DNA from: Gorillibacterium timonense
GTDB lineage: Bacteria; Bacillota; Bacilli; Paenibacillales; NBRC-103111
Assembly: GCF_001457415.1 (NCBI RefSeq)
Contig: NZ_LN881722.1
Span: forward strand, 434,001-498,000
DNA: 64,000 nucleotides
Reading direction: 5' to 3'
Under the pieces are notes generated by a model. It saw only the letters and a list, made by a program, of their open reading frames with translations. It was not told the DNA's origin and did not search any database. A program made the translations under genes and the position numbers. Of this stretch, positions 41,305 to 60,241 are shown piece by piece (within the stretch, counting starts at the first letter, position 1; every line of letters begins with the position of its first letter).

Positions 41305-41439
41305 CGGGTGTTATCTTTTTCCTGAATATTGCTGGGATACGGTGGTTATTCGGATCGAAATGTATATCATGCGTTTTATCATGCATGTCCATTTTGACCC
41401 CTTATGTTTCAGTGGAAGCTTCTCCGGGTAAGCAATCCT

Positions 41440-42026: not shown

Positions 42027-42146
42027 CCATTATGGGCGAGTGCTCATGTCTCCTGAATTCTCCACCGGATGAACGTGGTGTTTGCCTTTTCTCTCCCGGC
42101 AATATGCGGTATGGTAGAAGGGACAAGATGCAGGGAGGGGCTTCAA

Positions 42147-43928: not shown

Positions 43929-44016
43929 CTCGAAGCACTCGAACCACTCAAAGCGCTCGAACCACTCGAGTCGAGGTGGTAAGGTACCAGGCTGAAAGTT
44001 GAAGGAGCAGAGCCGT

Positions 44017-45147
44017 ATGAGAATAATGATTGTGGACGATAATCCGGTCAATTTGATCATTATCGAGAAGATACTAAAAAGCGAGGGCTACCGCGACTGC
44101 TTGACCGCGAGCTCCGCATATGAACTCTATAAACATTTGGGCGTCGATTCGGGAGAGCCTCCCGAATCCGATGTCGACCTCATCCTCATGGACATGATGA
44201 TGCCCGAGATCGACGGGCTGGAGGCTTGCCGCCGCATCAAGCGGGAGGAACGGCTAAGGGATATCCCGATCATCATCGTGACAGCTCTCGGCGATTCCAA
44301 CAAGCTGGCCGAGGCGCTGGATGCCGGGGCGATGGATTATGTCATGAAGCCGATCAACAAGGTGGAGCTGATGGCCCGCATCCGGTCCGCGCTGCGGCTG
44401 AAAAAAGAGATGGACTGGCATATCGAGCGCGACCGCAAGATTCGCAACGAGCTGGATCTCGCCAAGCAGGTTCAGCGCAGCGTGCTCGGCGAACCGGTGG
44501 ACAACGAGATCATCCGGGTCAGCGCCAACTACTATCCGTCCTTCGAGCTTGCCGGGGATATGTATTCCTGGTACCGCATCGACGACAGCCGGTATGGCGT
44601 GATTTTGCTCGACATGATGGGGCATGGCATCTCTTCCTCGCTGGTCTGCATGTTCATCTCCTCCGTGTTGAAGGACACCATCACCCGCCTCATCGATCCG
44701 GAGCTGGTCATCAATGAGCTGAACCGCTATATGACCCAGCTGTACAGCAAGGAGCATTTTATCCACTACTATTTCACCGCGATCTACCTGGTGATCGATA
44801 CGAACCGCAAAGTCATCGAGTACGTTAACGCCGGGCATCCTCCCGGGCTGCTGTTGACCCAAGGGGGAGAAGCGCTTCAGCTTGACCAGGGCTCTTGCGC
44901 CGTCGGGTTCTTTGAACAGATAGAAATCTCCAAGGCCCGCATCGAATACGAGGACGAATCGCGGATCTTCCTGTTTACGGACGGACTGTTGGAAGCGGTT
45001 GAGGAAGCCGGCGGAGATTTGCTGGAGGAATTGACCCGAGCCAGAGGCAATGATCTGGACCGCATCCTCGAACGGATTTTGCCCGAGGAAGTGCGCAAGG
45101 ACCACCATGACGACATGTGCATGGTCATGATCACAGCGAAATCTTGA
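44017..45147 (+). CDS. Response regulator with PP2C-type phosphatase output (RsbY/RsbP/RsbU-like)
   Basis: ATG 44017 (MRIMIVDDNP) follows GAAGGAG; an upstream TTG at 43999 is weaker. 376 residues. Residues 1-125 are a REC domain with phosphoacceptor D59 in L-I-L-M-D-M-M-M-P. A helical linker (E-L-D-L-A-K-Q-V-Q-R-S-V-L) leads to a SpoIIE/RsbU phosphatase: F-E-L-A-G-D-M-Y-S-W, L-L-D-M-M-G-H-G-I-S-S-S, N-A-G-H-P-P-G and F-L-F-T-D-G-L-L-E. Such proteins dephosphorylate RsbV to release sigma-B. The next gene is a hybrid kinase that could phosphorylate D59. Confidence 0.92.
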   Translation: MRIMIVDDNPVNLIIIEKILKSEGYRDCLTASSAYELYKHLGVDSGEPPESDVDLILMDMMMPEIDGLEACRRIKREERLRDIPIIIVTALGDSNKLAEALDAGAMDYVMKPINKVELMARIRSALRLKKEMDWHIERDRKIRNELDLAKQVQRSVLGEPVDNEIIRVSANYYPSFELAGDMYSWYRIDDSRYGVILLDMMGHGISSSLVCMFISSVLKDTITRLIDPELVINELNRYMTQLYSKEHFIHYYFTAIYLVIDTNRKVIEYVNAGHPPGLLLTQGGEALQLDQGSCAVGFFEQIEISKARIEYEDESRIFLFTDGLLEAVEEAGGDLLEELTRARGNDLDRILERILPEEVRKDHHDDMCMVMITAKS

Positions 45148-45163
45148 GGCGGGTGGTGGGCCA

Positions 45164-47977
45164 ATGCGGATGAAGATCAAGACGCGCCTGTTTGTCGGCT
45201 TCGGGGTGTTGATCCTTCTGCTGTTCACGATAGCAGGAGTGGGCATCGACCGATTCTCGGCACTGAGGTCGGATGTGAACGAGATCTATCAGAATCGGTA
45301 CGAAAAGGTATCGCTCGCTACCTCGGCCCGCCTCAGCATGAACGAAATGGCGAAGCATATCGCCAATCTTCTCAATCAGGGTAGCTCCTTTCAGGCTGCC
45401 GAGGAGCTCGCTTCCTTGGATGAGCGCAAAGGAAACACGGAACGGTACCTGCGGCAATTGACGGAGCTGGCGAATGCTTCGGATGCAGAGAAGAGCCTGT
45501 CCCTTACGGCGGTGGAGGACTGGAACCAATTCACAGGCTATGTAGCCCAATTGGTCGAGTTGATCAAGGAGGGCAAGCTGGAGAATGCGGTGGAGCTTCG
45601 AGCCGAGGAGGGCGTCGATTATCAAAATGCTCTGCAGGAGTCTCTGCTCAAGTTGAGCGACTATCATGAGGGCAGGATGCGTACGTCCCTGACCGAGATC
45701 AACGACACGAACCGGCGGATGCTGCTGCTCACCGGCGGGCTGTCGGCCGCCGGAATCTTTCTCGGGATCGCGGTGATGCTCTGGCTGATTCGCAGCATAT
45801 CCGGCGGTCTCAACGGCGTGGCGGACCTGCTCGCTTCGATATCAAACGGGAGCTTCCGAAGAAGATCACCCGCCTCGGCTTCCCAGGCTCCAGATAAGCC
45901 GGATGAATTTGACGAGATCTCGATCGCCTTCCACCGGATGGTCGACGATCTAGCGATCCGGACGGAGAACGAGCGTAAGCTGACGCTGAAGCTTGAAGAA
46001 GAGAACTGGCATTCCGCCAATCTCGCCCATATGCTGGAGCTTCTTCAGACGGCGGGGGATCTGCCGGAAGCCTCCCAATGGTTCGCAAGCGAGGTCGTTC
46101 CCCTGATCGGAGGCGTCTGCGGTGCGGTCTATCTGCTTCAGCCTGCCGGAGGCTCTCCGGTTTTGCGAATGAGCGGTGCTTATGCCTTCGACACAGAGGA
46201 AGAGAAGCGGAGCTTCGCCGTCGGCGAGGGCTGGGTCGGCCAATGCGCGCTGGACCGCAAGCCCCTTCGGCTGTCCGACCTGCCTCCCGGCTACATTACG
46301 CTGCGTTCCGGAACCGGGATGACGGAGCCGGTCGATCTCCTGCTTGTGCCGATCCTCCATGAGGGGGAGCTTCTCGGCGTCTTTGAAGCGGCAGCGCTCC
46401 GAAGCTTCGCTTCCCGCGAATGCGAGCTTGCGGAGAAGCTGACCGAGGCGCTCGCTGGCGCGCTAAGCCGAATCCGCTCTCGCAAGCGGATCGAAGAGCT
46501 CCTGAACATGTCGCAGACCCTTACGGAAGAGCTACAATCCCAATCCGAGGAGCTCCAGCATCAATCGGAGGAGCTCGTCACGCAACAGGAGGAGCTCAAG
46601 CACTCCAATGAGATGCTGGAGCAGCAGCTCCGGATCATCGAAGAGAAGAACAAGCAGTTGGAAGACAGTCAGGCGATTCTGGAGCGACAGAAACAGGAGT
46701 TGTCGCTTTCTTCCCAATACAAGACGGAATTTCTCGCCAACATGTCTCATGAGCTGCGAACTCCGCTGAACAGCATGCTGATTTTGTCGCAGCTGCTTGC
46801 GGAGAACAAGGAAGGAAATCTATCGGGGAAGCAGCAGGAATACGCAGGGACCATCCATTCTTCCGGCGGCGACCTGCTGCGGCTGATCGATGACATTCTC
46901 GACCTGTCGAAGGTGGAAGCGGGCAAGATGGAGATCCACCCGGATGCCGTCCGGCTGGTTGATCTTGCGGACCATCTCCGCCAGCTTTTTGCCCCCCTTG
47001 CCGTGAAGAACGGGGTCGATTTCCGCGTTCACGTAGAGAAGAGCAGCCCTTCCGTCCTGTACACGGATGGTCATCGCGTCCAGCAAATCCTCAAGAATTT
47101 GCTGGGAAACGCGTTTAAGTTCACCCGCGAGGGCAGCGTGACGCTCACAGTCAGCGCTGAGAGCGGCGGCGATAGCTCCGTCCCGGACGTTCCGCGAGCG
47201 GAAGGAGAAGCCGTCCGCTTTGAGGTGAAGGATACGGGGATCGGGATCAGCGATGAGAAGCTGAGCCTGATCTTCGAAGCCTTTCGCCAGGCAGACGGTT
47301 CGACGGGGCGGAGGTTCGGCGGGACCGGTCTCGGCTTGTCGATCAGCCTGGAGCTGGCCCGGCTTCTCGGCGGGACGATCACGGTGGAGAGCGAGCCGGA
47401 TCGGGGGAGCGCCTTCGCTCTGACCCTTCCCGATCTCCGTTCGCATCCGGCTTTAAGCGGGCATGCGGAAGCGGCCGCTAGCGCCGAGTCTGATGCCACT
47501 CCGGATGCGGAAGCGCAAGCCGTCTTCGACTCCGGCTGTCCGATCCTTGCTGCGGGTACCGACACTGCGGCTGAGACGGGCGACGAAATCGAGACGGCCC
47601 CCTTCGCCGGCAAGTCCATCCTTCTCGTCGACGACGATATCCGCAATGTTTTCGCGTTATCGAGCTTTCTGGAGAACTACGACATGAGAGTCACATTCGC
47701 CGAGAACGGCAGGGAAGCCCTTGATGTCCTGAGACGGAATCCCGATTTCGACCTCGTTCTCATGGACATCATGATGCCGGAGATGGACGGCTACGAGACG
47801 ATGAGGCGGATTCGGGAGCAGCCCGAGTTCGATGATCTGCCGATCATCGCATTGACCGCCAAGGCGATGCGGGAGGACCGCAGCCGCTGCATGGAGAATG
47901 GAGCTTCTGATTATATGGCCAAGCCGATCGATACGAACCGGCTATTGTCCTTGTTAAAGGTATGGCTGTACAAATGA
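45164..47977 (+). CDS. Membrane hybrid sensor histidine kinase (RsbK-like)
   Basis: 937 residues, 16 bp after the phosphatase gene. Order: membrane helix about 8-28; extracellular four-helix sensor (CHASE3/4HB type) about 30-180; second helix about 185-208; HAMP about 210-265; GAF about 300-435; glutamine-rich coiled coil about 440-520; HisKA with H529 in S-H-E-L-R-T-P-L-N; ATPase domain with D-T-G-I-G-I and G-G-T-G-L-G-L-S; C-terminal REC with D868 in L-M-D-I-M-M-P. This is the layout of RsbK of Bacillus cereus, and the neighbours match too. Methylatable Glu in the coiled coil would be the target of the CheR protein encoded next. Confidence 0.9.
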   Translation: MRMKIKTRLFVGFGVLILLLFTIAGVGIDRFSALRSDVNEIYQNRYEKVSLATSARLSMNEMAKHIANLLNQGSSFQAAEELASLDERKGNTERYLRQLTELANASDAEKSLSLTAVEDWNQFTGYVAQLVELIKEGKLENAVELRAEEGVDYQNALQESLLKLSDYHEGRMRTSLTEINDTNRRMLLLTGGLSAAGIFLGIAVMLWLIRSISGGLNGVADLLASISNGSFRRRSPASASQAPDKPDEFDEISIAFHRMVDDLAIRTENERKLTLKLEEENWHSANLAHMLELLQTAGDLPEASQWFASEVVPLIGGVCGAVYLLQPAGGSPVLRMSGAYAFDTEEEKRSFAVGEGWVGQCALDRKPLRLSDLPPGYITLRSGTGMTEPVDLLLVPILHEGELLGVFEAAALRSFASRECELAEKLTEALAGALSRIRSRKRIEELLNMSQTLTEELQSQSEELQHQSEELVTQQEELKHSNEMLEQQLRIIEEKNKQLEDSQAILERQKQELSLSSQYKTEFLANMSHELRTPLNSMLILSQLLAENKEGNLSGKQQEYAGTIHSSGGDLLRLIDDILDLSKVEAGKMEIHPDAVRLVDLADHLRQLFAPLAVKNGVDFRVHVEKSSPSVLYTDGHRVQQILKNLLGNAFKFTREGSVTLTVSAESGGDSSVPDVPRAEGEAVRFEVKDTGIGISDEKLSLIFEAFRQADGSTGRRFGGTGLGLSISLELARLLGGTITVESEPDRGSAFALTLPDLRSHPALSGHAEAAASAESDATPDAEAQAVFDSGCPILAAGTDTAAETGDEIETAPFAGKSILLVDDDIRNVFALSSFLENYDMRVTFAENGREALDVLRRNPDFDLVLMDIMMPEMDGYETMRRIREQPEFDDLPIIALTAKAMREDRSRCMENGASDYMAKPIDTNRLLSLLKVWLYK

Positions 47978-47987
47978 GGGAACCGAT

Positions 47988-48845
47988 ATGACGGACATCC
48001 AATCGAACCCCTCCTTGCTGACACCGGAGGAGGAACTGGAAAACATCGAGATCGAGCTCTTGCTGGAAGGAATCTTTCGCGTCTACGGATACGATTTTCG
48101 CGATTATGCCTTCTCCTCGCTCCGCCGCCGGATCTGGCATCGAATCCACGCGCTGCATCTCGGCAGCGTATCCGGCTTGCAGGAGAAGGTGCTGCATGAC
48201 CCCGCCCAGATGAAGGCGCTCATCGGCAGCTTGTCTATCAGCGTGACGGAGATGTTTCGGGATCCGCTGCTGTTTCAGCTTTTTCGGCGGGAGGCGGTTC
48301 CGTATCTGAAGTCCTTGCCGCAGATTCGCATCTGGCACGCCGGCTGCTCGACCGGAGAAGAAGTGCTGTCGATGGCTATTCTGCTTCACGAGGAAGGGCT
48401 GCTCGATCGGGCGAGAATCTATGCGACGGACATGAACGAGGACTCGCTGGACCAAGCCCGCAAAGGCATCATTCCCTTGCGCAAAATGCGGGATTACACC
48501 CGCAACTATCTTGCGGCGGGAGGAAGCGGGGAGTTCTCGGAATATTACTCCGTCAAAAGCGAATATGCGGTCTTCCAGCCCGAGCTGCTAAACCATGCCG
48601 TATTCGCCCAGCACAACCTGGTGACCGACCAGTCCTTCAACGAATTTCACGTGATTTTTTGCCGCAATGTGTTGATCTATTTCAATAAGGATTTGCAGGA
48701 TCAGGTTCATCGGCTGATCTACGACAGCCTGAGCCTGAAGGGATTCCTCGCCCTGGGGAACCGGGAATCGATCAATTTCACCCATCACGCCGATAGCTAT
48801 CAGCCCATGAGCCCAAGCGAAAGGTTATACCGTAAAATCCGATGA
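47988..48845 (+). CDS. CheR-type protein-glutamate methyltransferase (RsbM-like)
   Basis: 285 residues, 10 bp after the kinase gene. Helical N-terminal part (about 20-95), then the SAM domain: W-H-A-G-C-S-T-G-E-E-V-L-S-M-A, Y-A-T-D-M-N-E-D-S-L and V-I-F-C-R-N-V-L-I-Y-F. No tetratricopeptide or chemoreceptor-tail-binding loop stands out. No chemotaxis genes are nearby, so it probably methylates the hybrid kinase and tunes its signalling, as RsbM does with RsbK (known in B. cereus; inferred here). Confidence 0.9.
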   Translation: MTDIQSNPSLLTPEEELENIEIELLLEGIFRVYGYDFRDYAFSSLRRRIWHRIHALHLGSVSGLQEKVLHDPAQMKALIGSLSISVTEMFRDPLLFQLFRREAVPYLKSLPQIRIWHAGCSTGEEVLSMAILLHEEGLLDRARIYATDMNEDSLDQARKGIIPLRKMRDYTRNYLAAGGSGEFSEYYSVKSEYAVFQPELLNHAVFAQHNLVTDQSFNEFHVIFCRNVLIYFNKDLQDQVHRLIYDSLSLKGFLALGNRESINFTHHADSYQPMSPSERLYRKIR

Positions 48846-48862
48846 TTGCGAGGGGAGATACG

Positions 48863-50941
48863 ATGGCGCTCGACTACCCTGTTCCTATCCTGCTGGTGGA
48901 CGACCACCCGGAAAATCTGCTTGCCATTGAAGCCGTTCTTGCGGAAGAAAGCTATAACCTGGTGCGCGCTTCCTCCGGCGAGGAAGCTCTGCGCTGTCTT
49001 CTGAAGAATGAATTTGCGGTGATCGTGCTTGATGTCCAGATGCCGGGGATGGATGGCTTTGAGACCGCTCGCTTCATCAAGGCCCGGGAAAAATCGAAGA
49101 ACATTCCGATCATCTTCATCACCGCGACGAGCAAGGAAACCGAGCAGGTGTTTACCGGGTATTCGGTCGGGGCGATCGACTACATGGTCAAGCCGTTCAT
49201 TCCGCAGGCGTTGAAGTCGAAGATCGAAGGCTTTGTGAGCATTTACATCACGAACAAGGTCCTCCAGCAGCAGACCGATCTCCTACATGAGCAGACGATT
49301 CAGCTGGAAAAGGCGAACCGCGAGCTGCTCCTCACCACGCATAATCTGACCAAGGCGGAGGCGCAGGCGCGGGTTATCCGGGAAACGTCGATCGATACGA
49401 TGATTACCTTCGACAATGGAGGGACGATTCTGAAGATCAATCCGGCGGCGGAGACGATGTTCGGGTACAAGGAAGAGGAGCTGCTCGGCCAGCATATCTC
49501 GCTCGTCATTCCGTCGATTCATGAGCTGGAGGCGTGCCCGGAGCGAAACGGCGGCGAAACGTTGAAGTATACGACAGGCAAGCTCAGCGAGCTCATCCTG
49601 TGGCAAAAGAACGGCTCGGAGTTTCCCGCCGAGATCCAAATCGGGGAAGCGTTCATCGGCGACGACCATCTCTTTGCGATTACCGTGAGCGACATCACCG
49701 AGCGGAAAAAGAGCGAGCAGGAGCTAATCAAGGCCAAGGAAGCGGCGGAGATCGCTTCCAAGGTCAAAACGGAATTTCTCGCGATGATGAGCCATGAGAT
49801 CCGCACGCCCATGAACGGCGTCATCGGGATGACCGATCTGCTGCTCGAAACCGAGCTTACGACCGATCAGCGGGAGCTGGCCGAGGTCATTCGCAAGAGC
49901 GGGGACGCGCTGCTGTCTGTCATCAACGATATCCTCGACTTTTCCAAGATCGAATCGGGCAAGATGGAGCTGGAGAACGAACCGTTCGCGCTGGAAGCCT
50001 GCGTAGCGGAAACCTTCGATCTGTTTACGGCCAAATCCCGCAAGCGCAACCTCGATATGCAGTTTTTTATGGATCCCCGCTTGCCCGAGTACATCATGGG
50101 AGACATCACGCGCCTCAGGCAGATCTTGATCAATCTGGTCGGCAACGCCGTCAAATTCACCTTGAACGGCAGCGTCTATGTGATGGTGAGCCTGGTTGAC
50201 GAGCAGGAGGACCGGGTCAAGCTCGAGTTTGTTGTGAAGGATACAGGAATCGGGATTGCCCCCGATAAGCTGGATCGGCTGTTCAAGCCATTCTCGCAGC
50301 TCGATTCCTCCATGACGAGAAAGTACGGGGGGACCGGTCTTGGGCTTGCCATCTGCAAAACCCTCGTCGACCTGATGGAGGGGGATATCCGAGTGGACCC
50401 CGATTCCGAAATCGGGGCGACTTTCCTCTTCACGATTGTGGCGGACAAGGTGGACCCACAGCTGCTCGTCGCTTTGGAACAACCTGTTGCGAATGAGGAG
50501 GAACCCGCCCCTTCCTCCGGGCCGGGCCGGTCCTTGCGGATCCTGGTCGCCGAGGACAACCTGGTGAACCAGAAGCTGATGCTGCGCATTTTGGAATGCA
50601 TGGGGCATGACGTTGAAATCGCAGAGACCGGAAAACAGACGGTCCAGATGGCGCTTAGCCGGGAGTATGACGTTCTCTTCATGGACATCCAAATGCCGGA
50701 GATGGACGGCATCGAAGCGACCAAGGAAATCGTCAAGCAGCTTCCAAAGGGGCGTCGGCCGAAGATCATCGCCATGACCGCCAACGTTCTAAAGGAGGAG
50801 AAGGAACGCTGTCTGGCGGCAGGGATGGAGGGCTTCATGGGCAAGCCGGTCAAGGGCAATCAGATCCGCCAAATGCTCGATTCTGCCGCCGCCACCGATG
50901 AGCGGGACACCTCGACCAGACGCCGCGGGACGAGCGCCTAA
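48863..50941 (+). CDS. Cytosolic hybrid histidine kinase, REC-PAS-HisKA-HATPase-REC
   Basis: ATG 48863 (MALDYPVP) follows GCGAGGGGAG; ATG 48842 overlaps the CheR stop but lies before that site. 692 residues and no membrane helix. REC1 has D57 (V-L-D-V-Q-M-P-G-M-D-G). A coiled coil about 125-175 is followed by PAS about 178-290 (D-T-M-I-T-F-D-N-G-G). The HisKA histidine is H311 in S-H-E-I-R-T-P-M-N-G. The ATPase has D-T-G-I-G-I and G-G-T-G-L-G-L-A. REC2 has D608 (F-M-D-I-Q-M-P-E-M-D-G). It may feed a second, internal signal into the phosphatase at 44017. Confidence 0.9.
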   Translation: MALDYPVPILLVDDHPENLLAIEAVLAEESYNLVRASSGEEALRCLLKNEFAVIVLDVQMPGMDGFETARFIKAREKSKNIPIIFITATSKETEQVFTGYSVGAIDYMVKPFIPQALKSKIEGFVSIYITNKVLQQQTDLLHEQTIQLEKANRELLLTTHNLTKAEAQARVIRETSIDTMITFDNGGTILKINPAAETMFGYKEEELLGQHISLVIPSIHELEACPERNGGETLKYTTGKLSELILWQKNGSEFPAEIQIGEAFIGDDHLFAITVSDITERKKSEQELIKAKEAAEIASKVKTEFLAMMSHEIRTPMNGVIGMTDLLLETELTTDQRELAEVIRKSGDALLSVINDILDFSKIESGKMELENEPFALEACVAETFDLFTAKSRKRNLDMQFFMDPRLPEYIMGDITRLRQILINLVGNAVKFTLNGSVYVMVSLVDEQEDRVKLEFVVKDTGIGIAPDKLDRLFKPFSQLDSSMTRKYGGTGLGLAICKTLVDLMEGDIRVDPDSEIGATFLFTIVADKVDPQLLVALEQPVANEEEPAPSSGPGRSLRILVAEDNLVNQKLMLRILECMGHDVEIAETGKQTVQMALSREYDVLFMDIQMPEMDGIEATKEIVKQLPKGRRPKIIAMTANVLKEEKERCLAAGMEGFMGKPVKGNQIRQMLDSAAATDERDTSTRRRGTSA

Positions 50942-51457: not shown

Positions 51458-52645
51458 ATGAAACAGACAGAATGCGTGGCAATGCTCCTTGCCGGTGGGG
51501 AAGGAAAACGACTGGGTGTGCTGACTTCACAACTTGCCAAGCCTGCGGTACCTTTTGGCGGCAAGTACCGCATTATTGATTTTACCCTCAGCAATTGCAC
51601 CAATTCGGGGATCTCTTCCGTGGGGATTCTTACTCAATATCAGCCGGAGCTGCTTCACGCCCATATCGGCACCGGTTCCGCCTGGAAGCTGGATCAGCCG
51701 GGAGGTGACGCAACTCTTCTCTCGTCGGATGAATGCAAGGTCTACAAAGGAACCGCCGACGCGATATACCAGAACTTCGCTTATCTGGAGGAGCGCGATC
51801 CGGAATACGTGCTGATCATCTCGGGCGATCATATTTATAACATGGACTACCGCCAAATGCTCGAGTACCACAAAGCCAAAAAAGCGGATGCGACCATCTC
51901 CGTGATCCCGGTGAAGTGGGAAGAAGCAAGCCGCTTCGGAATTATGAACACGGACAAGCTGGGCCGCGTCACAGACTTTGTGGAAAAGCCCGCCAAGCCG
52001 CAAAGCAACCTGGCTTCCATGGGGATTTACATTTTCAATTGGGAGATCTTGCGTGAATTCTTGCTCAAGGATGCCGCGAATGCGAGCTCCAGCAATGACT
52101 TCGGCAAGGACATCATCCCGCTACTGCTGCAGGAGGGGGCTAAGCTTCACGCGTACTCCTTCAAGGGCTATTGGAAGGACGTCGGCACGGTTCAGAGCCT
52201 GTGGGATGCCCACATGGACCTGCTGGAGGCGGAGCCGGTCATGATCTTAAACGGTGAGGAGTGGCCTCTCTACACAAATTGCGAGCCGTCCGCCAGCCAG
52301 TACATTTCTCCGACTGCGCGAATCGCCAGCTCCAGCATCAACGAGGGATGCCGCATCTATGGTGAAGTGGATCATTCCGTCATCTTCTGCAACGTAGAGG
52401 TTGGCGAGGGCAGCCTGATTCGCGACAGCATCATCATGCCCGGTGCGGTAATCGGCAAGAACGTCATCATCCATAAAGCGATCGTCGGCGAAGGCACGGT
52501 CATCCGGGATGGAGCCATCGTAGGCGATTTCGAAGAGGATGAAATCATCGTCATCGGAGATCATGAAGTGGTAACGAAGGAAGCCGACCGGCTTCCGAAA
52601 ATCTTCGCACCGCGCAATTCCATTTTTCTGGAGAGAATCGGTTAA
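51458..52645 (+). CDS. glgC: Glucose-1-phosphate adenylyltransferase
   Basis: 395 residues. The N-terminal Rossmann part has [45 protein letters not shown] and F-V-E-K-P. The C-terminal ~110 residues are hexapeptide repeats. It makes ADP-glucose for glycogen. The window shows no glgD, glgA, glgB or glgP next to it; a MITE precedes it and a terminator follows, so here it is a single-gene unit. Confidence 0.93.
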
Positions 52646-53632: not shown

Positions 53633-53880
53633 TCTCGTGCCTCCTTCATCCCTCATCGGGTACGTACTACTTGTATATAAACCGAAGGGTCCGAACCTGA
53701 AACCGAGGACCGTTCTGAGAAAGGGACGCGAAAAAACGGGCCATTATTCCCAAACCGATGGTTCAGGCTATAGCCGGAAGGTTATTAATATCGTGAGAAA
53801 CGAATTGAAGCTGACTGTATCGATCCGATTAAAGTTAAAAGCGTTCGAGTCCGATGTCGACGTGCGAGGAGGGACACCGA

Positions 53881-54468
53881 ATGAACCGGAAATGGGCATG
53901 CACTCTTCTTGGCGGAAGCCTCTTGCTGATGGGACACGGCGGCGGGTTATCGGTTGAGACCATCCGTCTTCCCGACACTTCGTCCGCATTTACGAATACA
54001 GCCGTACACGCCTTGGCTCAGAGTCCACTGGGGCGGGGTTCCGCGGATTCCGCTGCTCCGGATTCCGGACAACAACCCGATGCGGCGATTGCTCTTCGGG
54101 ATGTAAACGGAATAACCCTATCCGATGATCGCGAAGCGGTTGTCGCCAAGCTGGGGGTTCCGGAGGATATCATTCAGGACCCGTTGAATAAGGATCTGGA
54201 GATCTACCGATACGCACAGATGGAAGTCTCCTTTTCAGGGGATCACGTCTACGATGTCTCTGTCTCTGCGGACTCGGGTTCGCTGACCCTCGATGGAGTG
54301 AAGCTGCAGATCGCCCCGGCATCCATTCGGGACAAGCTGGGCGATCCCGATTATGTGGCCGAAGACGGCCTCGTGTATCAGCGGGGTTATTATCTGCTCA
54401 AGGTTTATCTGAATGTCGAACAAGGACGCATCGATGTGATTCGCTATTACTCCTTGGCGAATACATGA
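53881..54468 (+). CDS. Secreted hypothetical protein
   Basis: ATG 53881 follows GAGGAGGGAC. 195 residues. A hydrophobic N-terminal segment (about 8-22) gives a signal or anchor. Residues about 75-190 contain two similar beta-alpha segments (V-V-A-K-L-G-V-P-E-D-I and I-R-D-K-L-G-D-P-D-Y-V), each followed by a strand-rich stretch, resembling the SmpA/OmlA-like lipoprotein fold without a lipobox. No enzyme motif. Function unknown. Confidence 0.75.
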   Translation: MNRKWACTLLGGSLLLMGHGGGLSVETIRLPDTSSAFTNTAVHALAQSPLGRGSADSAAPDSGQQPDAAIALRDVNGITLSDDREAVVAKLGVPEDIIQDPLNKDLEIYRYAQMEVSFSGDHVYDVSVSADSGSLTLDGVKLQIAPASIRDKLGDPDYVAEDGLVYQRGYYLLKVYLNVEQGRIDVIRYYSLANT

Positions 54469-54664: not shown

Positions 54665-55012
54665 ATGAATCGCAAGAAATTCGATATGACGGTTAAGGAA
54701 TCATCGGACAATTATACGATCTATGTGAGCGGGGAGCTCGATTTGGCCGTTTCGGCCGAGTTTCGCTCAGAGATTGAACCGCTGCTTACTTCCGATAAAG
54801 AAGTTGTTCTAGACATGGCTGATCTCACTTATATCGACAGCACGGGGATGGGCATCATCATATTTTTCTTGAAGGCGCGCAAGGAGGATGGGAAGGCCCT
54901 GTCGGTTCAAAATGTACCGCAAAAGATCAAAAAGCTGTTTGATCTGACGGGGATTACGCGGTTCCTTCCCGTTCACGGCAGCTCTCCTGAAACGAAGGCG
55001 GATGGTGTATGA
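54665..55012 (+). CDS. rsbV: Anti-sigma factor antagonist, RsbV-like (copy 1)
   Basis: 115 residues, STAS domain. The phosphorylatable serine is in Y-I-D-S-T-G-M-G. V-S-G-E-L-D-L-A-V and F-D-L-T-G-I-T-R-F are canonical. In partner switching the unphosphorylated form binds the anti-sigma kinase. It overlaps the following rsbW-like gene (ATGA), but no sigma factor gene follows. It is close to the second copy at 56943 (V-S/L-S-G-E-L-D-L), pointing to duplication. Confidence 0.92.
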   Translation: MNRKKFDMTVKESSDNYTIYVSGELDLAVSAEFRSEIEPLLTSDKEVVLDMADLTYIDSTGMGIIIFFLKARKEDGKALSVQNVPQKIKKLFDLTGITRFLPVHGSSPETKADGV

Positions 55013-55452
55013 TGGTTGGACAGAAACGGATCTTTCTCTCCCTGCCGGCTGAAGCGGAGTGTATTGATATCGCAAGGTTGGCCCTTTACGGCATTTCCAA
55101 CCAGATGGGCTTTTCCTATGAGGATATTGAGGATATGAAGGTAGCCATCGCTGAAGCGTGCAACAATGTTGTCTTGCATGCTTATGCGGGAGCAGAACAA
55201 GGGACCATCGATATTGAATTTTTGCGCAGCGAAGCGGAGCTTACCATCACGGTGAGCGATTCCGGAGAGAGCTTCCCCTATGACCGGGCGGCTCACACTG
55301 AAATGCCATATGAAGGCAAGTCGCTGGACGACATCTCCGCTGGCGGGCTCGGCATCTATCTGATGCAAGCGCTCATGGACCGCGTGGAGGTGGAACAGGA
55401 GGCCGGCACGAAGGTGATGCTGACCAAGTACCTCACTCCTGTCCCAACCTGA
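55009..55452 (+). CDS. rsbW: Anti-sigma serine kinase, RsbW-like (copy 1)
   Basis: 147 residues of the GHKL fold: N-box E-A-C-N-N-V-V-L-H-A-Y, G1 V-S-D-S-G-E-S-F, and G2 A-G-G-L-G-I-Y-L-M-Q-A-L-M-D. It would bind a sigma factor and phosphorylate its RsbV partner. The shared stretch G-F-S-Y-E-D-I-E-D-M-K-V-A makes it paralogous to the copy at 57296. Having no sigma gene of its own, it may act on sigma-B at 57745 or on an unlinked partner. Confidence 0.92.
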   Translation: MMVGQKRIFLSLPAEAECIDIARLALYGISNQMGFSYEDIEDMKVAIAEACNNVVLHAYAGAEQGTIDIEFLRSEAELTITVSDSGESFPYDRAAHTEMPYEGKSLDDISAGGLGIYLMQALMDRVEVEQEAGTKVMLTKYLTPVPT

Positions 55453-55555
55453 GCCGAACCGATTCCTATGCCCTTTCCGGCATCCATCGAAAGAGCCTTA
55501 TGCCTGCAGCACGAGGCGGCGAATGGAGCGGAAGGGGTTTTTGTGTTCGATGAAA

Positions 55556-55597
55556 AAGCCGACGCTCACCGAAAGGGAATCGGTGTGCGCCGGCTTA
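55556..55597 (-). terminator. Terminator of dps
   Basis: On the minus strand AAGCCGGCGCACACCGA pairs with TCGGTGAGCGTCGGCTT, two mismatches, followed by TTTC. Confidence 0.8.
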
Positions 55598-55609
55598 GGA
55601 TAACAAGGA

Positions 55610-56065
55610 TTAACGAAGGAAAGCGCGAAGCATCCAGGCGTTCTTCTGCAGATCGGTGATCGTCTGAACGCACAGGTCGGCGGTGGAGTCGTCTTCCGCG
55701 TCTTCGGCGATTGCGATCGTTTCCTTCAGCTCCGAGATCAACTGTTCGAAGTCGGCCAATACGGCTTGGACCATTTCTTTGGGGGCTTCGCCACCCTTTG
55801 CTTCCTTGATCGTAGCGATCGACAGGCTTTCCTTCAGAGTCGCAACCGGATTTCCTTGCAGAGCCAGAATGCGTTCTGCAACTTCGTCCAGCTTTTCGGC
55901 GGTGTAATCATAGAACTCTTCCAATTTGGAATGCAGCTCGAAGAAGTTTTCCCCGGTTACATACCAGTGATAATTGTGGAGCTTCGTGAACAGAACCGTC
56001 AGGTTCGCGACCTGTTGGTTAAGAGCTCCTACAACATTTTTGGTTTGGTTTGCAGTCGTTGCCAT
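55610..56065 (-). CDS. dps: Dps-family ferritin-like protein
   Basis: 151 residues after AAAGGAGGAAGG. The four-helix Dps motifs are present: H-N-Y-H-W-Y-V-T-G-E-N-F-F-E-L-H with the ferroxidase His/Asp-Glu set (F-Y-D-Y-T-A-E-K-L-D-E-V-A-E-R). It oxidises and stores iron and shields DNA during stress. A sigma-B-like promoter (TATTCA, 14 bp, GGGTAT) precedes it. In B. cereus a ferritin-like gene also sits beside sigB. Confidence 0.93.
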   Translation of the reverse strand: MATTANQTKNVVGALNQQVANLTVLFTKLHNYHWYVTGENFFELHSKLEEFYDYTAEKLDEVAERILALQGNPVATLKESLSIATIKEAKGGEAPKEMVQAVLADFEQLISELKETIAIAEDAEDDSTADLCVQTITDLQKNAWMLRAFLR

Positions 56066-56116
56066 GATACCTTCCTCCTTTATCGTTATCAGTCAAATTT
56101 AGGGTTCTGTTTTATT

Positions 56117-56153
56117 ATACCCAAGGAAAGAGGCAATGAATATGAATATTCAT
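56117..56153 (-). promoter_or_regulatory. Sigma-B-like promoter and palindrome upstream of dps
   Basis: On the minus strand TATTCA (56142-56137), 14-bp spacer, GGGTAT (56122-56117). A 12-bp palindrome ATGAATATTCAT (56142-56153) overlaps the -35 and could bind a repressor such as a PerR/Fur-type protein; this last point is a guess. Confidence 0.5.
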
Positions 56154-56169
56154 TCACAATTGGCGGTAA

Positions 56170-56195
56170 GATTCATCGAATGGCAATGCGGGTAA
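56170..56195 (+). promoter_or_regulatory. Sigma-B-like promoter upstream of the DUF948 gene
   Basis: GATTCA (56170-56175), 14-bp spacer, GGGTAA (56190-56195). It shares both hexamers with the motifs at 56785 and 58561. Confidence 0.55.
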
Positions 56196-56239
56196 CAACC
56201 CTTACCTAACAAACCCATCATTTGAGGAGGTAAGCCATC

Positions 56240-56698
56240 ATGATCCTGGAAATCAGTGTGGCGGTGATCGCTATCGCTTTCGCCGCTCTCGTCCTCTTTT
56301 TGATTCGTACGCTCCATACGCTTCAAGTCACGCTAAAGGATACGAACAAGACCATTGTCGAGGTTCAGCGGGAGCTGAACGAGGTCAGTACGGAAGTGAA
56401 GGGGCTCATCCGCAATACCAATCAGATTACGCTGGACGTCCGAACCAAGATGAAGGCACTTGATTCCTTGTTCGGTACGGTAGAGAACGTCGGGGATACG
56501 CTGGAGGGAGTGACGTCCACCCTGCGTACCGCGTCCAATCGCTTCATGACGAATGTCCAGCGGAACATCAATCAGGTCGAAACCCCCGAGAACAAAAAGG
56601 TAGATAAGGTGCTGAGCGCCGTCAGCTCGGCCATCGACATCTGGAAGCGGATCAGGCTTCATCGGCTGAACAGCAGGCGGGAAGCGGCCCGTTCTTGA
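56240..56698 (+). CDS. DUF948 general stress protein (YtxG-like)
   Basis: 152 residues after TGAGGAGG. An N-terminal membrane helix (about 3-24) is followed by a long coiled coil rich in T-N-x-T-I-x-E-V and V-R-T-K-M-K-A-L, as in DUF948/YtxG. B. subtilis ytxG is sigma-B dependent together with ytxH; a ytxH-like gene occurs at 60433. Function unknown. Confidence 0.85.
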   Translation: MILEISVAVIAIAFAALVLFLIRTLHTLQVTLKDTNKTIVEVQRELNEVSTEVKGLIRNTNQITLDVRTKMKALDSLFGTVENVGDTLEGVTSTLRTASNRFMTNVQRNINQVETPENKKVDKVLSAVSSAIDIWKRIRLHRLNSRREAARS

Positions 56699-56784
56699 AT
56701 CCGCGAGTCGAGCAGCTCCGTATCGGAAGCACGGCGTGCTTGCGGCAGCGCGTCCTGTTCGCGGGTACATGCAGAATCTGTTAT

Positions 56785-56810
56785 GATTCAGGTTTTGAGG
56801 GAGCGGGTAA
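56785..56810 (+). promoter_or_regulatory. Sigma-B-like promoter upstream of rsbV-rsbW-sigB
   Basis: GATTCA (56785-56790), 14-bp spacer, GGGTAA (56805-56810), about 130 bp ahead of rsbV copy 2. It would give positive autoregulation of the operon. Confidence 0.6.
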
Positions 56811-56942
56811 TGACTCATGAGCTAGTATGCAACACGCTCGGGGGATAACCTCTAGGTAAGGCAAGGCGGCCGAGGGGATCTTTCCGATGCGGTCAAATGG
56901 AAACGAAGATCGGATTTTCATTGGAATGAGGGAGGAAACGAT

Positions 56943-57299
56943 ATGAATAGAGAGAAGTTTTATATGACCAAGCAGCTCACTCCGCAAAGCATCGCCTTTT
57001 CGTTGAGCGGGGAGCTTGATCTGTCATCGGCTCCGGAGATGCAAGAGGAGCTGGAGCCTTACGTGAACCAAAGCGGACGCGCCTTGATCCTGAACTTTCA
57101 GGATCTTCAATACATCGATAGCACCGGTATCGGGATCTTGATTCAAATTCTGAAGCGCCGCACTGCCATCGGGAGCGGCTTCAAGTTGATCGGGGTCTCG
57201 CCGAAGATCAAAAGGCTGTTTGATATTACGGGAATATCTCAGTACCTGGATCTGGAAGTCGCGGGAATTCCCCAAGAAAGGAAAGAAGATATCGTATGA
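56943..57299 (+). CDS. rsbV: Anti-sigma factor antagonist RsbV (sigB operon)
   Basis: 118 residues after GGGAGGAAACG. STAS domain with the phosphoserine loop Y-I-D-S-T-G-I-G and L-S-G-E-L-D-L-S-S. It overlaps rsbW by 4 bp (ATGA). In stress the phosphatase at 44017 should dephosphorylate it so that it traps RsbW and frees sigma-B. Confidence 0.95.
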   Translation: MNREKFYMTKQLTPQSIAFSLSGELDLSSAPEMQEELEPYVNQSGRALILNFQDLQYIDSTGIGILIQILKRRTAIGSGFKLIGVSPKIKRLFDITGISQYLDLEVAGIPQERKEDIV

Positions 57300-57748
57300 A
57301 ACAAGAGGAGCAGCATGTTCAGTTAACCGTGCCGGCCGTTGCCCATTATGTTGATATCGTTCGACTTACGCTTTACGGGATTGCTACGAAATGGGGATTT
57401 TCCTATGAAGAAATCGAGGATATGAAGGTCGCGGTTGCAGAAGCGTGCAACAATGCGGTTCTTCATGCGTATAAAGATCGTGAGCCTGGAAAGGTGGACG
57501 TGACCTTCAGCGGAGCGGAGGGAGAATGGATCCGGATCTCCGTTAAGGATCAAGGCGCCAGCTTTGACTTCAATCGCAGAAGCGGTCAACCCACTGCCCT
57601 GCACGATAAGAAATTGGAAGATGTTCATGCCGGAGGGCTGGGAATCTACATGATGCAGGCCTTGATGGACGATGTTCAGGTGATTACCGACTCCGGAACC
57701 GAAGTGATCTTGACTAAGTTTCTCCAACGAAATGGGGAGATGGCATGA
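57296..57748 (+). CDS. rsbW: Anti-sigma-B factor / serine kinase RsbW
   Basis: 150 residues. N-box E-A-C-N-N-A-V-L-H-A-Y, G1 V-K-D-Q-G-A-S-F-D, G2 A-G-G-L-G-I-Y-M-M-Q-A-L-M-D-D. It holds sigma-B inactive and phosphorylates RsbV. Both junctions are 4-bp ATGA overlaps, which keeps the three proteins in fixed ratio. Confidence 0.95.
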   Translation: MKQEEQHVQLTVPAVAHYVDIVRLTLYGIATKWGFSYEEIEDMKVAVAEACNNAVLHAYKDREPGKVDVTFSGAEGEWIRISVKDQGASFDFNRRSGQPTALHDKKLEDVHAGGLGIYMMQALMDDVQVITDSGTEVILTKFLQRNGEMA

Positions 57749-58515
57749 AGGCGAATGAGCCGACTCATGAACAGACTTTACTCAACAAGATTGCGGAATA
57801 TCAGGATACCGGGGCCGAAGAGGTCGTGACGGACCTGCTTATGGAATATGAATCGCTCGTCAAAATGGCAGCGGGCAAAATGTCCCGCAATCGGCCGGAT
57901 CTCTACGAGGATCTCTATCAAGTCGGGCAGATGTCGCTTCTGCGCTTGTTCAAGCAGTATGACCCGAGTCTCGGCATTCAGTTTGAAGCTTATGCTATGA
58001 AGAGCTTGATCGGCCACATGAAGAACTATCTGCGGGACAAGTCCTGGTACATCCAGGTTCCCCGGAGAATCAAGGAAAAGGGGCTGTTGATCCAGCAAAC
58101 CATCGATGACCTGACCATGAAGCTGGAGCGCTCCCCTAATATCAACGAGATCGCAGAGGCTCTGGAGCTCTCTCAGGAAGAAACCATCGAGGTGCTGGCA
58201 GGCCGGGAATGCTACAACTACGTGTCGCTCGATACACCGCTCTCCAGCGACGAAGGGAGTGCCACCATCGGCGATCTGATCGGAGGCACCGGGGATGATT
58301 ATCATACCATCGAGATGAGAATGGACCTGCAGCAGGCCTTTGTATACCTCAAGGAAGAGGAGAGAAGGGTGCTCGTGATGGCCTATAGCGAGGGTCAATC
58401 GCAGCGGACCATCGCCCAAGAGCTCGGGATTTCCCAGATGAGCGTATCCCGCATCCAGAAGAGAGCGATCGAGAAGCTGAAGGATCATTTAACCGAAAAG
58501 AAATCGGCAGGATGA
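57745..58515 (+). CDS. sigB: RNA polymerase sigma factor SigB
   Basis: 256 residues. Region 2 is D-L-Y-Q-V-G-Q-M-S-L-L-R and Y-A-M-K-S-L-I-G-H-M-K-N-Y-L-R-D-K-S-W; region 3 is P-R-R-I-K-E-K-G; region 4 is L-K-E-E-E-R-R-V-L-V-M-A-Y...S-Q-R-T-I-A-Q-E-L-G-I-S-Q-M-S-V-S-R. This is the sigma-B/F/G branch. Gene order rsbV-rsbW-sigB with overlaps, and a terminator right at the stop. No rsbX follows. Confidence 0.95.
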   Translation: MKANEPTHEQTLLNKIAEYQDTGAEEVVTDLLMEYESLVKMAAGKMSRNRPDLYEDLYQVGQMSLLRLFKQYDPSLGIQFEAYAMKSLIGHMKNYLRDKSWYIQVPRRIKEKGLLIQQTIDDLTMKLERSPNINEIAEALELSQEETIEVLAGRECYNYVSLDTPLSSDEGSATIGDLIGGTGDDYHTIEMRMDLQQAFVYLKEEERRVLVMAYSEGQSQRTIAQELGISQMSVSRIQKRAIEKLKDHLTEKKSAG

Positions 58516-58546
58516 GGAACACCGGATGACCGGTGTTCCTTTTTTG
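58515..58546 (+). terminator. Terminator of the sigB operon
   Basis: A perfect 11-bp stem AGGAACACCGG (58515-58525) with its complement (58530-58540), ATGA loop and TTTTT after it. Confidence 0.92.
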
Positions 58547-58585: not shown

Positions 58586-58676
58586 GTAGTGGTACCTCAG
58601 AGACGAGACTGCTGAGGAATGGCGAAACGGCCATGTTCGGGCCGAATCAAATCCAAGAAGAGGCGGTGTGGTTCTG

Positions 58677-58988
58677 ATGATTAAGCATCGGATCAAATGC
58701 TTCGACAGTGAGCTTCTGGTGCGCGAAAGCGGCGAAGCCTCGTACGAGTTAACCATCCAATCGTCCTCCAACCCGCTTGGCTTCGGCAACGCTCTACACA
58801 CCTTCAAGAGCTGCGATGAGGCGGTCCGGGCCGCCGAGCATTTCTGCGGGCTGTATACGGCCGCTAGAGAGAAGGGATACTATTTGAGGGAGAAGAGTTT
58901 TATCAAACCGGACCGGGAAAAGATCGAGGTCTCCAGCCTGCTGCTTACGGGAATGGCGGTGGAGGAGTTTGCCGCCACCTTGTCGTAA
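58677..58988 (+). CDS. Hypothetical protein, probably stress-induced
   Basis: 103 residues from ATG 58677 with AAGAGGCGG upstream; GTG 58668 is an alternative. The sequence (K-C-F-D-S-E-L-L-V-R-E-S-G-E-A-S-Y-E-L) alternates strands, then a helix with three cysteines in the whole protein (C-F, C-D, C-G). No known domain. Its sigma-B-like promoter suggests regulon membership. Confidence 0.65.
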   Translation: MIKHRIKCFDSELLVRESGEASYELTIQSSSNPLGFGNALHTFKSCDEAVRAAEHFCGLYTAAREKGYYLREKSFIKPDREKIEVSSLLLTGMAVEEFAATLS

Positions 58989-59019: not shown

Positions 59020-60241
59020 TAGTAGCTCTTCAATTCTTAAACCGTGGATAAAGTCGTTTTAGCTTGATGCGAGCGTCCTCGGTAGTAAACTGCCAATCGA
59101 CTCCCTTTTGGGAAAGGTTGCGCGCCTGTTCCCAAGCAGACATTTCAATGGTCAAGTCGGCAATGGAGGGAATGCGACGTCCCAAACATTGACTCGTCAG
59201 AACACTGAGCTCGATCTCTGCCATATTGAGCCAACTGCCATGCTTGGGCGTGTAGTGAACCTCGATTCGCTTAGCTAAACGACGAGCGGTCTGCGGATCA
59301 AACGCTTGATAGAGTGAAGCGATCGCATGCGTATTGAGATTATCCATCACCAGCCGAATCTTCGGTGCGTCTTTGTAATGAACGTCCAGGAGTTCCCGGA
59401 TTTGTTCCGCCCACTCGATTCGCGTGCGTTGCTCCCGAACGCTCACATGACGCCAACTGCCCAAGGGTTCCGTGAAAAGAAAGATACTGCAGGTGCCAAC
59501 TCGGACATATTCACTATCCTGACGTTCAGGTTGGGCGGGCTTCATAGGGATGGGCTGTCTGGCTTCATCCAACAGTTGGTAGGGTTTCTCGTCCATGCAG
59601 ATCACGGGGCAATCCGCATCATAGGGCAACCGATAGACATCCAACACATCCTCCATCGCAGCGACAAATGTGGCATTCTGCTCGGGGGGAATACACCAGC
59701 ATTTATGAAGATGGGGTTTGAGCTCGTTTTTTTAACACTTGCCGGACAGTTTCGTAGGAGAGCCCCTCCACATACTGAAGTTCGACCGCTCGATTCGCCA
59801 GCAAGTGCAGGGTCCAGCGGCTTCGTCCCTCCGGGGGTGCACTGCAGCTTAGGGCGATGATCCTTGCCTCCACTTCTCCGGTTATTTTGGGAGCAACAGG
59901 GGGAGTCACCCGCTTTTTTCGCTTCACTGCTCCATCCAACCCTTGCTCGGTATACGCTTTACGAATGGCATAGACCGTATTGGGATGCACGCCTAACCGC
60001 TCGGCAATCTCCCGTTCTTTTAAGGCCCCGCCTTCACGATTCTTATCGGCCGCCAGCAGAATGTGTGCCCGGCGGATGGCACGAGCGCTTGCCTTTCCTT
60101 TCGATACCACCACGGTTAACTGGTTTCGCTCTTCTTCGGACAGTGATATCGGATAGCTTATCGGTCGCATCGTATTACCTCTTTTTGCCACTACTTTACC
60201 ACAGATTGCATTTTCATACTATTAGAATTGAAGAGCTACTA
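59020..60241 (-). mobile_element. IS630-family insertion sequence
   Basis: Inverted ends GTAGCTCTTCAATTCT (59022-59037) and its complement (60224-60239), flanked by TA on both sides (59020-59021 and 60240-60241) within CTAG, the target typical of IS630. It encodes one transposase read in two frames. The right end directly touches MITE copy 3: its TA is also the left TA of that MITE. About 1.22 kb. Confidence 0.92.
59030..60170 (-). CDS. IS630-family transposase, two frames joined at an A7 run
   Basis: The first frame (ATG 60170 to 59703) carries the HTH region: S-E-E-E-R-N-Q-L, R-A-H-I-L-L-A-A-D and G-V-H-P-N-T-V-Y-A-I-R. It ends soon after TTAAAAAAACG (minus strand, 59733-59727). The catalytic half continues in another frame to 59030 with the DDE set: V-I-C-M-D-E-K-P, L-V-M-D-N-L-N-T-H, and G-S-W-L-N-M-A-E-I-E-L. 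Joining needs a +1 shift or loss of one A, giving about 379 residues. All catalytic residues are present, so it may be active through slippage; a disabling mutation is the alternative. Confidence 0.85.

Follow-up and report, generated by a model that had tools for sequence, protein, structure and literature searches.

The SigB switch is a standard case of partner-exchange signalling, and most schemes of it show a single RsbV with a single RsbW. Here we describe a locus of Gorillibacterium timonense that carries two rsbV-rsbW pairs 1.5 kb apart, within an analysed stretch of 64,000 nucleotides (the window; C5:434001-498000 of a source genome of 5.26 Mb in 7 contigs). The pairs occupy 54665-55452 (pair 1: RsbV1 and RsbW1, below V1 and W1) and 56943-57748 (pair 2: V2 and W2), and a sigma gene is attached to the second pair only. 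The RsbV-RsbW-SigB system of Bacillus subtilis is matched in the V-W order next to sigB, the phosphoserine, the ATP site, the docking residues and the SigB-type promoter of the operon; unlike B. subtilis, this locus has a second, older V-W pair upstream, which lacks a SigB-type promoter. We suggest, at a probability of about 0.6, that pair 1, a partner-switch module of old paralogous origin, belongs to the same SigB circuit as pair 2, in which V1 would act as an antagonist of W2, and W1 as a kinase of V1 or a sink for it.

Three other described systems bear on this comparison. An input module of RsbK, RsbM and RsbY is known from Bacillus cereus (available part of PMC4574943) and has been reported in Paenibacillus (available part of PMC9847131). 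The window resembles it in having a hybrid kinase with GAF and REC domains, a CheR methyltransferase and a REC-PP2C protein in the sigB region, but differs in its sensor (4HB_MCP_1 and TarH were matched in place of CHASE3), in a second hybrid kinase and in the presence of two V substrates. In Mycobacterium smegmatis, RsbW1, RsbW2 and RsbW3 of the SigF switch divide the roles of anti-sigma factor, kinase only and antagonist, according to the accessible portions of PMC7693655 and PMC10950880. The likeness here, by genes alone, is that several RsbW paralogues accompany one sigma factor; the three mycobacterial rsbW genes lie at separate loci, whereas W1 comes with its own V, beside sigB. Such a division of roles among the RsbW paralogues of one sigma factor thus has a precedent in M. 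smegmatis. Finally, SpoIIAA, SpoIIAB and SigF belong to the same protein families, and SpoIIAA-SpoIIAB for SigF were found separately in the source genome. Pair 1 falls far under the cut-offs of the sporulation models (SpoIIAA, V1 57.8 vs 114.75; SpoIIAB, W1 78.5 vs 135).

The earlier note on this DNA had described two paralogous rsbV-rsbW pairs with intact motifs and ATGA overlaps and a sigma gene only with the second, and both the open reading frames and the family models agree with it. All five genes are on the plus strand. V1 (54665-55012, a STAS antagonist with phosphoserine S59) and V2 (56943-57299, the SigB-linked antagonist) exceed the TIGR00377 cut-off of 53.45 with 70.3 and 74.3 bits; W1 (55009-55452, a GHKL kinase/anti-sigma paralogue) and W2 (57296-57748, the SigB-linked anti-sigma factor/kinase) lie above the cut-off of 145 of the RsbW model NF003144 with 172.6 and 180.8 bits, and both narrowly miss another RsbW model, TIGR01924 (148.0 and 151.5 bits against 155.05). 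The overlaps are at 55009-55012 (V1/W1), 57296-57299 (V2/W2) and 57745-57748 (W2/sigma gene). W1 and W2 are 53% identical over 139 columns (E 6e-53), and V1 and V2 43% over 118 columns (E 4e-29). The closest solved structure to W1 by sequence is B. subtilis RsbW (PDB 6m36, E 1.3e-33). In the window, W1 retains the ATP-site residues N53, D84, G86, G113, G115 and T134 and the docking residues R23, D42, K44 and E49; the latter four are among the RsbV contacts reported for B. subtilis in the available part of PMC7340262, and most of the contact residues given there are common to both paralogue sets. The sigma gene (57745-58515) gives its best matches to SigBFG (212.2 bits, cut-off 234.35) and the SigB model TIGR02941 (211.7, cut-off 315), and since both cut-offs are missed, we call it SigB-type on the grounds of best model, operon context and promoters. 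It is the sole match in the genome at E<=1e-35. Behind pair 1 there is no sigma gene; the next gene encodes a Dps-like ferritin on the opposite strand (55610-56065, PF00210). In g13, one of the groups of relatives discussed below, W1 adjoins W2-sigB.

The phylogeny proposed in the earlier note as a check separates pair-1 and SigB-linked proteins into distinct lineages, which rules out a recent tandem duplication. In a tree of 86 labelled RsbW rows plus outgroup, one branch (Shimodaira-Hasegawa-like approximate likelihood ratio test, SH-aLRT, 87) splits 32 pair-1 from 54 SigB-linked rows, with 1 label change against a shuffled mean of 26, and a larger set of 157 rows gives 2 changes against 45. 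For RsbV the figures are 3 against 26, and 3 to 5 against about 43 in the larger set. A careful concatenated tree unites most SigB-linked pairs in a group of 35 rows (support 98/98); outside it stand L079 and L092, SigB-linked loci of another family, whose V rows fall among V1 rows. Row L068_G036_Wp_5435, an extreme branch, was excluded from the 86-row tree and from some W2 counts and kept in the N-box and position-25 counts. To judge from their sequences, the two pairs are old, diverged paralogues. Their duplication dates far back in the family; with so distant an outgroup as SpoIIAB, its root is not fixed.

Distribution ties pair 1 to SigB. A first search covered 59 genomes, from which 33 loci were fetched; the main sample comprised 98 genomes of the host's family, each at least 90% complete, searched for RsbW at E<=1e-17 and SigB at E<=1e-35. 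RsbW was found in 83, the same 83 had exactly one SigB match each, and 15 had neither. Two RsbW copies occur in 51 of the SigB-bearing genomes and one in 32. Among the latter, G107 was considered as a case of V1 without W1 and ruled out, as a second, divergent W1 lies just under the cut-off. Both copies share a contig in 49 of the 51; in the remaining two, G095 and G104, a short contig carries pair 1 at its end. Of the 51, 44 had their loci fetched, and wherever these show both copies on one contig (42 genomes), W2-sigB follows W1 on the same strand, as it does in 60/60 of the loci showing both (a few genomes having been fetched twice). Exactly Dps, DUF948 and V2, among scored genes, separate W1 from W2-sigB in 41 of these 60, and the recurring order, with local changes, is phosphatase, kinase, CheR, kinase, glgC, an unknown gene, V1-W1, Dps, DUF948 and V2-W2-sigB. 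Genus g21 is divided between 24 genomes with two RsbW and 6 that lack RsbW and SigB alike; a single RsbW is not seen there, so that every SigB-bearing genome keeps both. Among 80 named loci, a W1-type gene occurs within the 6 kb flank in 15, all titled Paenibacillus, a lower bound since some W1 genes lie beyond the flank. In the 15 SigB-less genomes (9 + 6), the W1 of the window used as query retrieved at E<=0.001 only SpoIIAB-like or weaker matches of at most 45 bits, and a g6-type W1 query gave no match at that threshold in any of the 15, with G107 recovered as positive control. G094 was considered as a SigB-less genome retaining remnants of both V, which was ruled out, its two STAS genes scoring only 43 and 33 bits.

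The earlier note had left open whether pair 1 is a decoy or damping circuit for the same sigma-B or controls an unlinked sigma factor. The absence of a sigma gene attached to pair 1 would suit a module acting on a sigma factor encoded elsewhere or on a target other than a sigma factor, and STAS/GHKL pairs with other targets are known. We nevertheless consider this very improbable: each of the 83 genomes has one SigB-type match, pair 1 occurs in none of the 15 SigB-less genomes, it is linked to sigB, and SigF has its own SpoIIAA-SpoIIAB in the source genome. The joint absence of pair 1 and SigB, together with one SigB per genome, makes an unlinked target sigma factor unlikely. The decoy or damping proposal gains from the same linkage and joint absence, from the shared docking residues and from loci, described next, at which V1 is the only RsbV. 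Membership of pair 1 in the SigB circuit is thus the most likely arrangement.

Eleven loci lack V2 and keep V1-W1 and W2-sigB: those of g13 (L076, L087), that of G089 (L104) and eight from named Paenibacillus (L116, L125, L132, L158, L159, L163, L179, L193). In V2-less loci with printed coordinates, DUF948 (in g13, W1) directly precedes W2 and leaves no room for V2. Six further named loci have the order DUF948-W2-sigB, with a flank that ends before V1 (L118, L137, L155, L157, L187, L194). The W2 rows of g13 and the named V2-less set form one clade of 17 (SH-aLRT 88); G089 falls elsewhere, so V2 was lost at least twice. A genome-wide search for antagonists in 13 of the 14 named V2-less genomes (all but that of L187) found in each a SpoIIAA-like match and one match, judged by position, in the sigB locus or about 2-3 kb beyond it. 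V1 is the sole stand-alone antagonist besides SpoIIAA in G125, G128, G130 and G135, where it was typed in the locus of G135 (L193) and recognised by position in G125, G128 and G130. Besides SpoIIAA and V1, G029 and G089 each carry one further STAS protein, and G029 also has a long transporter-like frame.

In several lineages the W1 partner of V1 is itself eroded. W1 of g6 retains N53, D84 and T134 in 0/16 rows each and G113 in 1/16; in the named V2-less Paenibacillus clade D84 has become N in 8/8; and W1 of G089 has lost four of the six sites (N53, D84, G113, T134). Loss of these ATP-site residues would be expected to abolish ATP binding, as it does in GHKL proteins. Meanwhile R23, D42, K44 and E49 are kept in all 53 W1 rows, each of which comes with a V1, and the serine of the phosphoserine site is kept in 53/53 V1 rows. 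Because the serine of V1 is maintained where its own W1 looks dead, another kinase is needed, for which W2 is a close candidate. Where the ATP site of W1 is eroded, the SigB-linked W2 would be the likeliest kinase of V1, and these sequences form the strongest argument that V1 and W2 meet. A bolder formulation, to which we would give less than an even chance, is that RsbW1 regulates the antagonist and not the sigma factor: it would be a pseudokinase-like sink for RsbV that has lost ATP-site residues in at least three lineages with its docking face kept, and RsbV1 would at least twice have become the sole switch for the anti-sigma factor of SigB, in place of RsbV2.

The ATP-site losses in three lineages and at L103 (G072), together with the lack of a W1 match in 31 of the 83 SigB-bearing genomes, might instead suggest that pair 1 is a decaying duplicate without function. 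This is the least credible of the alternatives, given that the V1 serine and the W1 docking residues are each kept in 53/53 rows, that V1 diverges at 0.87 times the rate of V2, and that all 24 SigB-bearing genomes of g21 keep both RsbW. The W1 at L103:7289-7783 is the only one of 26 two-pair rows outside g6 without N53 and G113.

Divergence was compared across the 26 two-pair loci outside g6, over 314 (W) and 288 (V) non-independent locus pairs. W1 pairs are 1.62x as far apart as W2 pairs (median), and V1 pairs stand at 0.87x V2 pairs, V1 being no faster than V2. By these distances W1 is under looser constraint than W2, as expected if it has fewer partners. At position 25 of W, 88 of 104 SigB-linked rows have T and 44 of 53 W1 rows have S, C or A; at position 28 of V, 24 of 26 two-pair V1 have A and 66 of 83 V2 have S. 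Residue 28 was considered as an adaptation of V1 to W2 after the loss of V2, since it is S in 10/10 V1 of the V2-less clade and g13, and was not used in view of exceptions: S also occurs in L071 and L080, which have both pairs, and A is retained in G089. The earlier note had also pointed to N-V-V-L versus N-A-V-L in the N-box of W1 and W2 as possibly setting partner choice. The difference is present in the sequence; its proposed role does not hold up, V at position 54 occurring in 1 of 53 pair-1 rows (that of the window itself) and 27 of 104 SigB-linked rows, so that the A/V alternation is not paralogue-specific by row counts.

These residues bear on the possibility of two insulated switches on one sigma factor, in which W1 would be a second true anti-SigB factor released only by V1, W2 would be released only by V2, and both would have to let go. 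The paralogue-biased positions W 25 and V 28 adjoin the V-W contact; W1 keeps R23, which aligns with an arginine of SpoIIAB that we take to be a sigma contact; and all six ATP-site residues are present in 25 of the 26 two-pair loci outside g6, L103 being the exception. We still regard such insulation as unlikely, as V1 stands alone beside W2-SigB in the V2-less lineages, ATP-site residues have been lost from W1 in three lineages that kept V1, and W1 diverges about 1.6x faster than W2. Another possibility, based on what has been proposed for RsbW3 of M. smegmatis (accessible part of PMC7693655), is that W1 might antagonise W2 through mixed W1-W2 dimers. RsbW dimerises via strand 1 and helix 1, as stated in the available part of PMC7340262, and helix 1 is largely conserved between W1 and W2. 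We think this distinctly unlikely, however, in view of the V-docking residues kept in all 53 W1 rows, each with a V1, and of the paralogue-specific residue 25 within helix 1 itself.

Expression provides a further difference between the pairs. Promoters were scanned as GTTTCA-N13-15-GGGTAA, with at most 2 mismatches and within 350 bp, in loci up to L114 and in the window. A SigB-type promoter precedes DUF948 in 38/38 copies (25 perfect), Dps in 35/37, and the small gene after sigB in 18/18. It precedes V2 in 30/50, the other 20 all following a promoter-bearing DUF948, and is also found before glgC (15/36), an SDR gene (4/4), the phosphatase (4/18) and the unknown gene preceding pair 1 (4/25). 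For V1 it was found in only 3/32, with 1.3 expected from mononucleotide shuffles. The window itself has 13 consensus matches against 3.8 in shuffles, among them GATTCA-N14-GGGTAA before the DUF948 gene (56170-56195) and again before pair 2 (56785-56810), both on the plus strand. As far as the consensus can tell, SigB controls most of this neighbourhood, and pair 1, with no SigB-type promoter, is the exception that stands out.

Several observations weigh against a shared circuit in which V1 acts on W2. W1 of the window keeps every catalytic residue checked; V1 may therefore need no W other than W1. Nine of the 13 V2-less genomes searched have one more unlinked, untyped stand-alone STAS protein; similar extra proteins also occur in SigB-less genomes. 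In G097 (L195:14420-15714), W2-sigB stands with no RsbV beside it, and a genome-wide search there found only SpoIIAA and a long transporter-like frame, no RsbV; since this W2 persists without a V, the V2-less loci do not prove V1-W2 contact. V is likewise missing at the second locus of G012 (L077) and at a second W-sigB of G036 (L068). G012, which is incomplete (89%) and outside the 98, has two SigB loci (L076, L077); G036, from another family and also outside the 98, has two SigB genes. At L123:4309-4677 (Paenibacillus sp. J2TS4), a V1-like gene lies without W1 upstream of Dps and V2-W2-sigB. The paralogue-specific residues W 25 and V 28 near the docking site make some insulation possible. 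In the concatenated tree, two divergent g6 pair-1 rows (L072, L082) fall inside the SigB-linked group, and g6 W1 rows in general are long branches placed inconsistently between trees; the typing of g6 W1 rests on synteny, the V trees and the 86-row W tree because the careful tree misplaced two. That pair 1 has no SigB-type promoter was concluded from matches to a consensus, and no convincing SigA promoter could be recognised before pair 1 in the window. Apart from these points, we note that the V-less W-sigB of G036 (L068:4668-5917) lies near a normal V-W-sigB locus and that its W lacks the N-box asparagines.

About 7-14 kb upstream of sigB, at 43999-50941, lies a plus-strand signalling module, left unmentioned in the earlier note on the two pairs, that is likely to be the input to the SigB switch. 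It consists of an RsbY-like REC-PP2C phosphatase (43999-45147; PF00072, PF07228), an RsbK-like hybrid histidine kinase (45164-47977; domain matches 4HB_MCP-GAF-HisKA-HATPase-REC), an RsbM-like CheR methyltransferase (47988-48845; domain match) and a second hybrid kinase (48842-50941; domain matches REC-PAS-HisKA-HATPase-REC). PF07228 has four matches in the source genome: that of 43999-45147, one on C3, which looks like SpoIIE, one at L030 in a separate PAS-PP2C cluster, and one at L031, which, judged from the open reading frames, lies among iron-sulphur proteins. The settings of the other three make the REC-PP2C protein the likeliest phosphatase to dephosphorylate, and so activate, both RsbV. 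The L030 cluster (L030:3194-7367, contig C7 of the same genome) carries on one strand a PAS-PAS-PP2C protein, a short GHKL ATPase, a Cache-HAMP chemoreceptor and a STAS protein, and looks like a partner switch around a chemoreceptor, without a sigma gene.

Taken together, the circuit that we favour, with pair 1 as a paralogous module on SigB, could work as follows. In unstressed cells W2 would hold SigB and phosphorylate V1 and V2. A hybrid kinase would activate the REC-PP2C phosphatase, by which both V proteins would be dephosphorylated. V1, made without SigB, would bind W2 before any other antagonist and so release SigB; the freed SigB would then turn on its own operon, V2-W2-sigB, and the balance would be reset. 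W1, made together with V1, would phosphorylate or sequester it and in this way set a threshold. We infer from the genes and their arrangement the binding of V1 to W2, the weak or absent binding of W1 to SigB, the shared phosphatase and the timing.

The remaining features of the region belong largely to the conserved neighbourhood. Upstream of pair 1 on the plus strand lie a nucleotidyltransferase gene (51458-52645), a syntenic neighbour which we presume to be GlgC-like, and a gene without family match that is present, by synteny, in many relatives (53854-54468). Between the pairs, after the Dps-like gene, the DUF948 gene (56240-56698, plus strand; PF06103) is, as in most relatives, the one ahead of pair 2. 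At 57730-57748 the conserved tail of W2 overlaps the likely ribosome-binding site of sigB, and its conservation is probably at the level of DNA rather than protein; the RxEEM motif of this tail was therefore set aside as a specificity feature, since its codons probably supply that site for the overlapping gene. After sigB, a terminator-like hairpin (58514-58541, plus strand) is of a kind not above chance in the region (3 found, 6.0 expected), and a small protein of no assigned family is encoded at 58668-58988 (plus strand), the gene whose copies carry a SigB-type promoter in every case scanned. Directly after the sigB operon, on the minus strand, two adjoining open reading frames (59030-60191) presumably represent a split IS630-type transposase. 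The sole perfect SigB-type promoter match in the window, at 41406-41431, lies upstream of an open reading frame at 42069, presumably a RecQ-like helicase.

In the open literature we found no title or abstract reporting a second rsbV-rsbW pair in Paenibacillus or Bacillales, and no second pair is mentioned in the available portions of PMC9847131 (2 Paenibacillus genomes), PMC4186907, PMC7522486 and PMC11418112. Of the SigB-bearing genomes searched in the family, more than half have a second pair of old origin. If RsbW1 does act on the antagonist, this would be three-body partner switching between V1, a W1 sink and W2-SigB, in which a dedicated, sometimes dead, paralogue buffers free antagonist. 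With V2, catalytic residues of W1 or the entire system lost naturally in some of them, the genomes of the family provide a testable set for studying paralogous switches on one sigma factor and a dead kinase as a sink for its antagonist.

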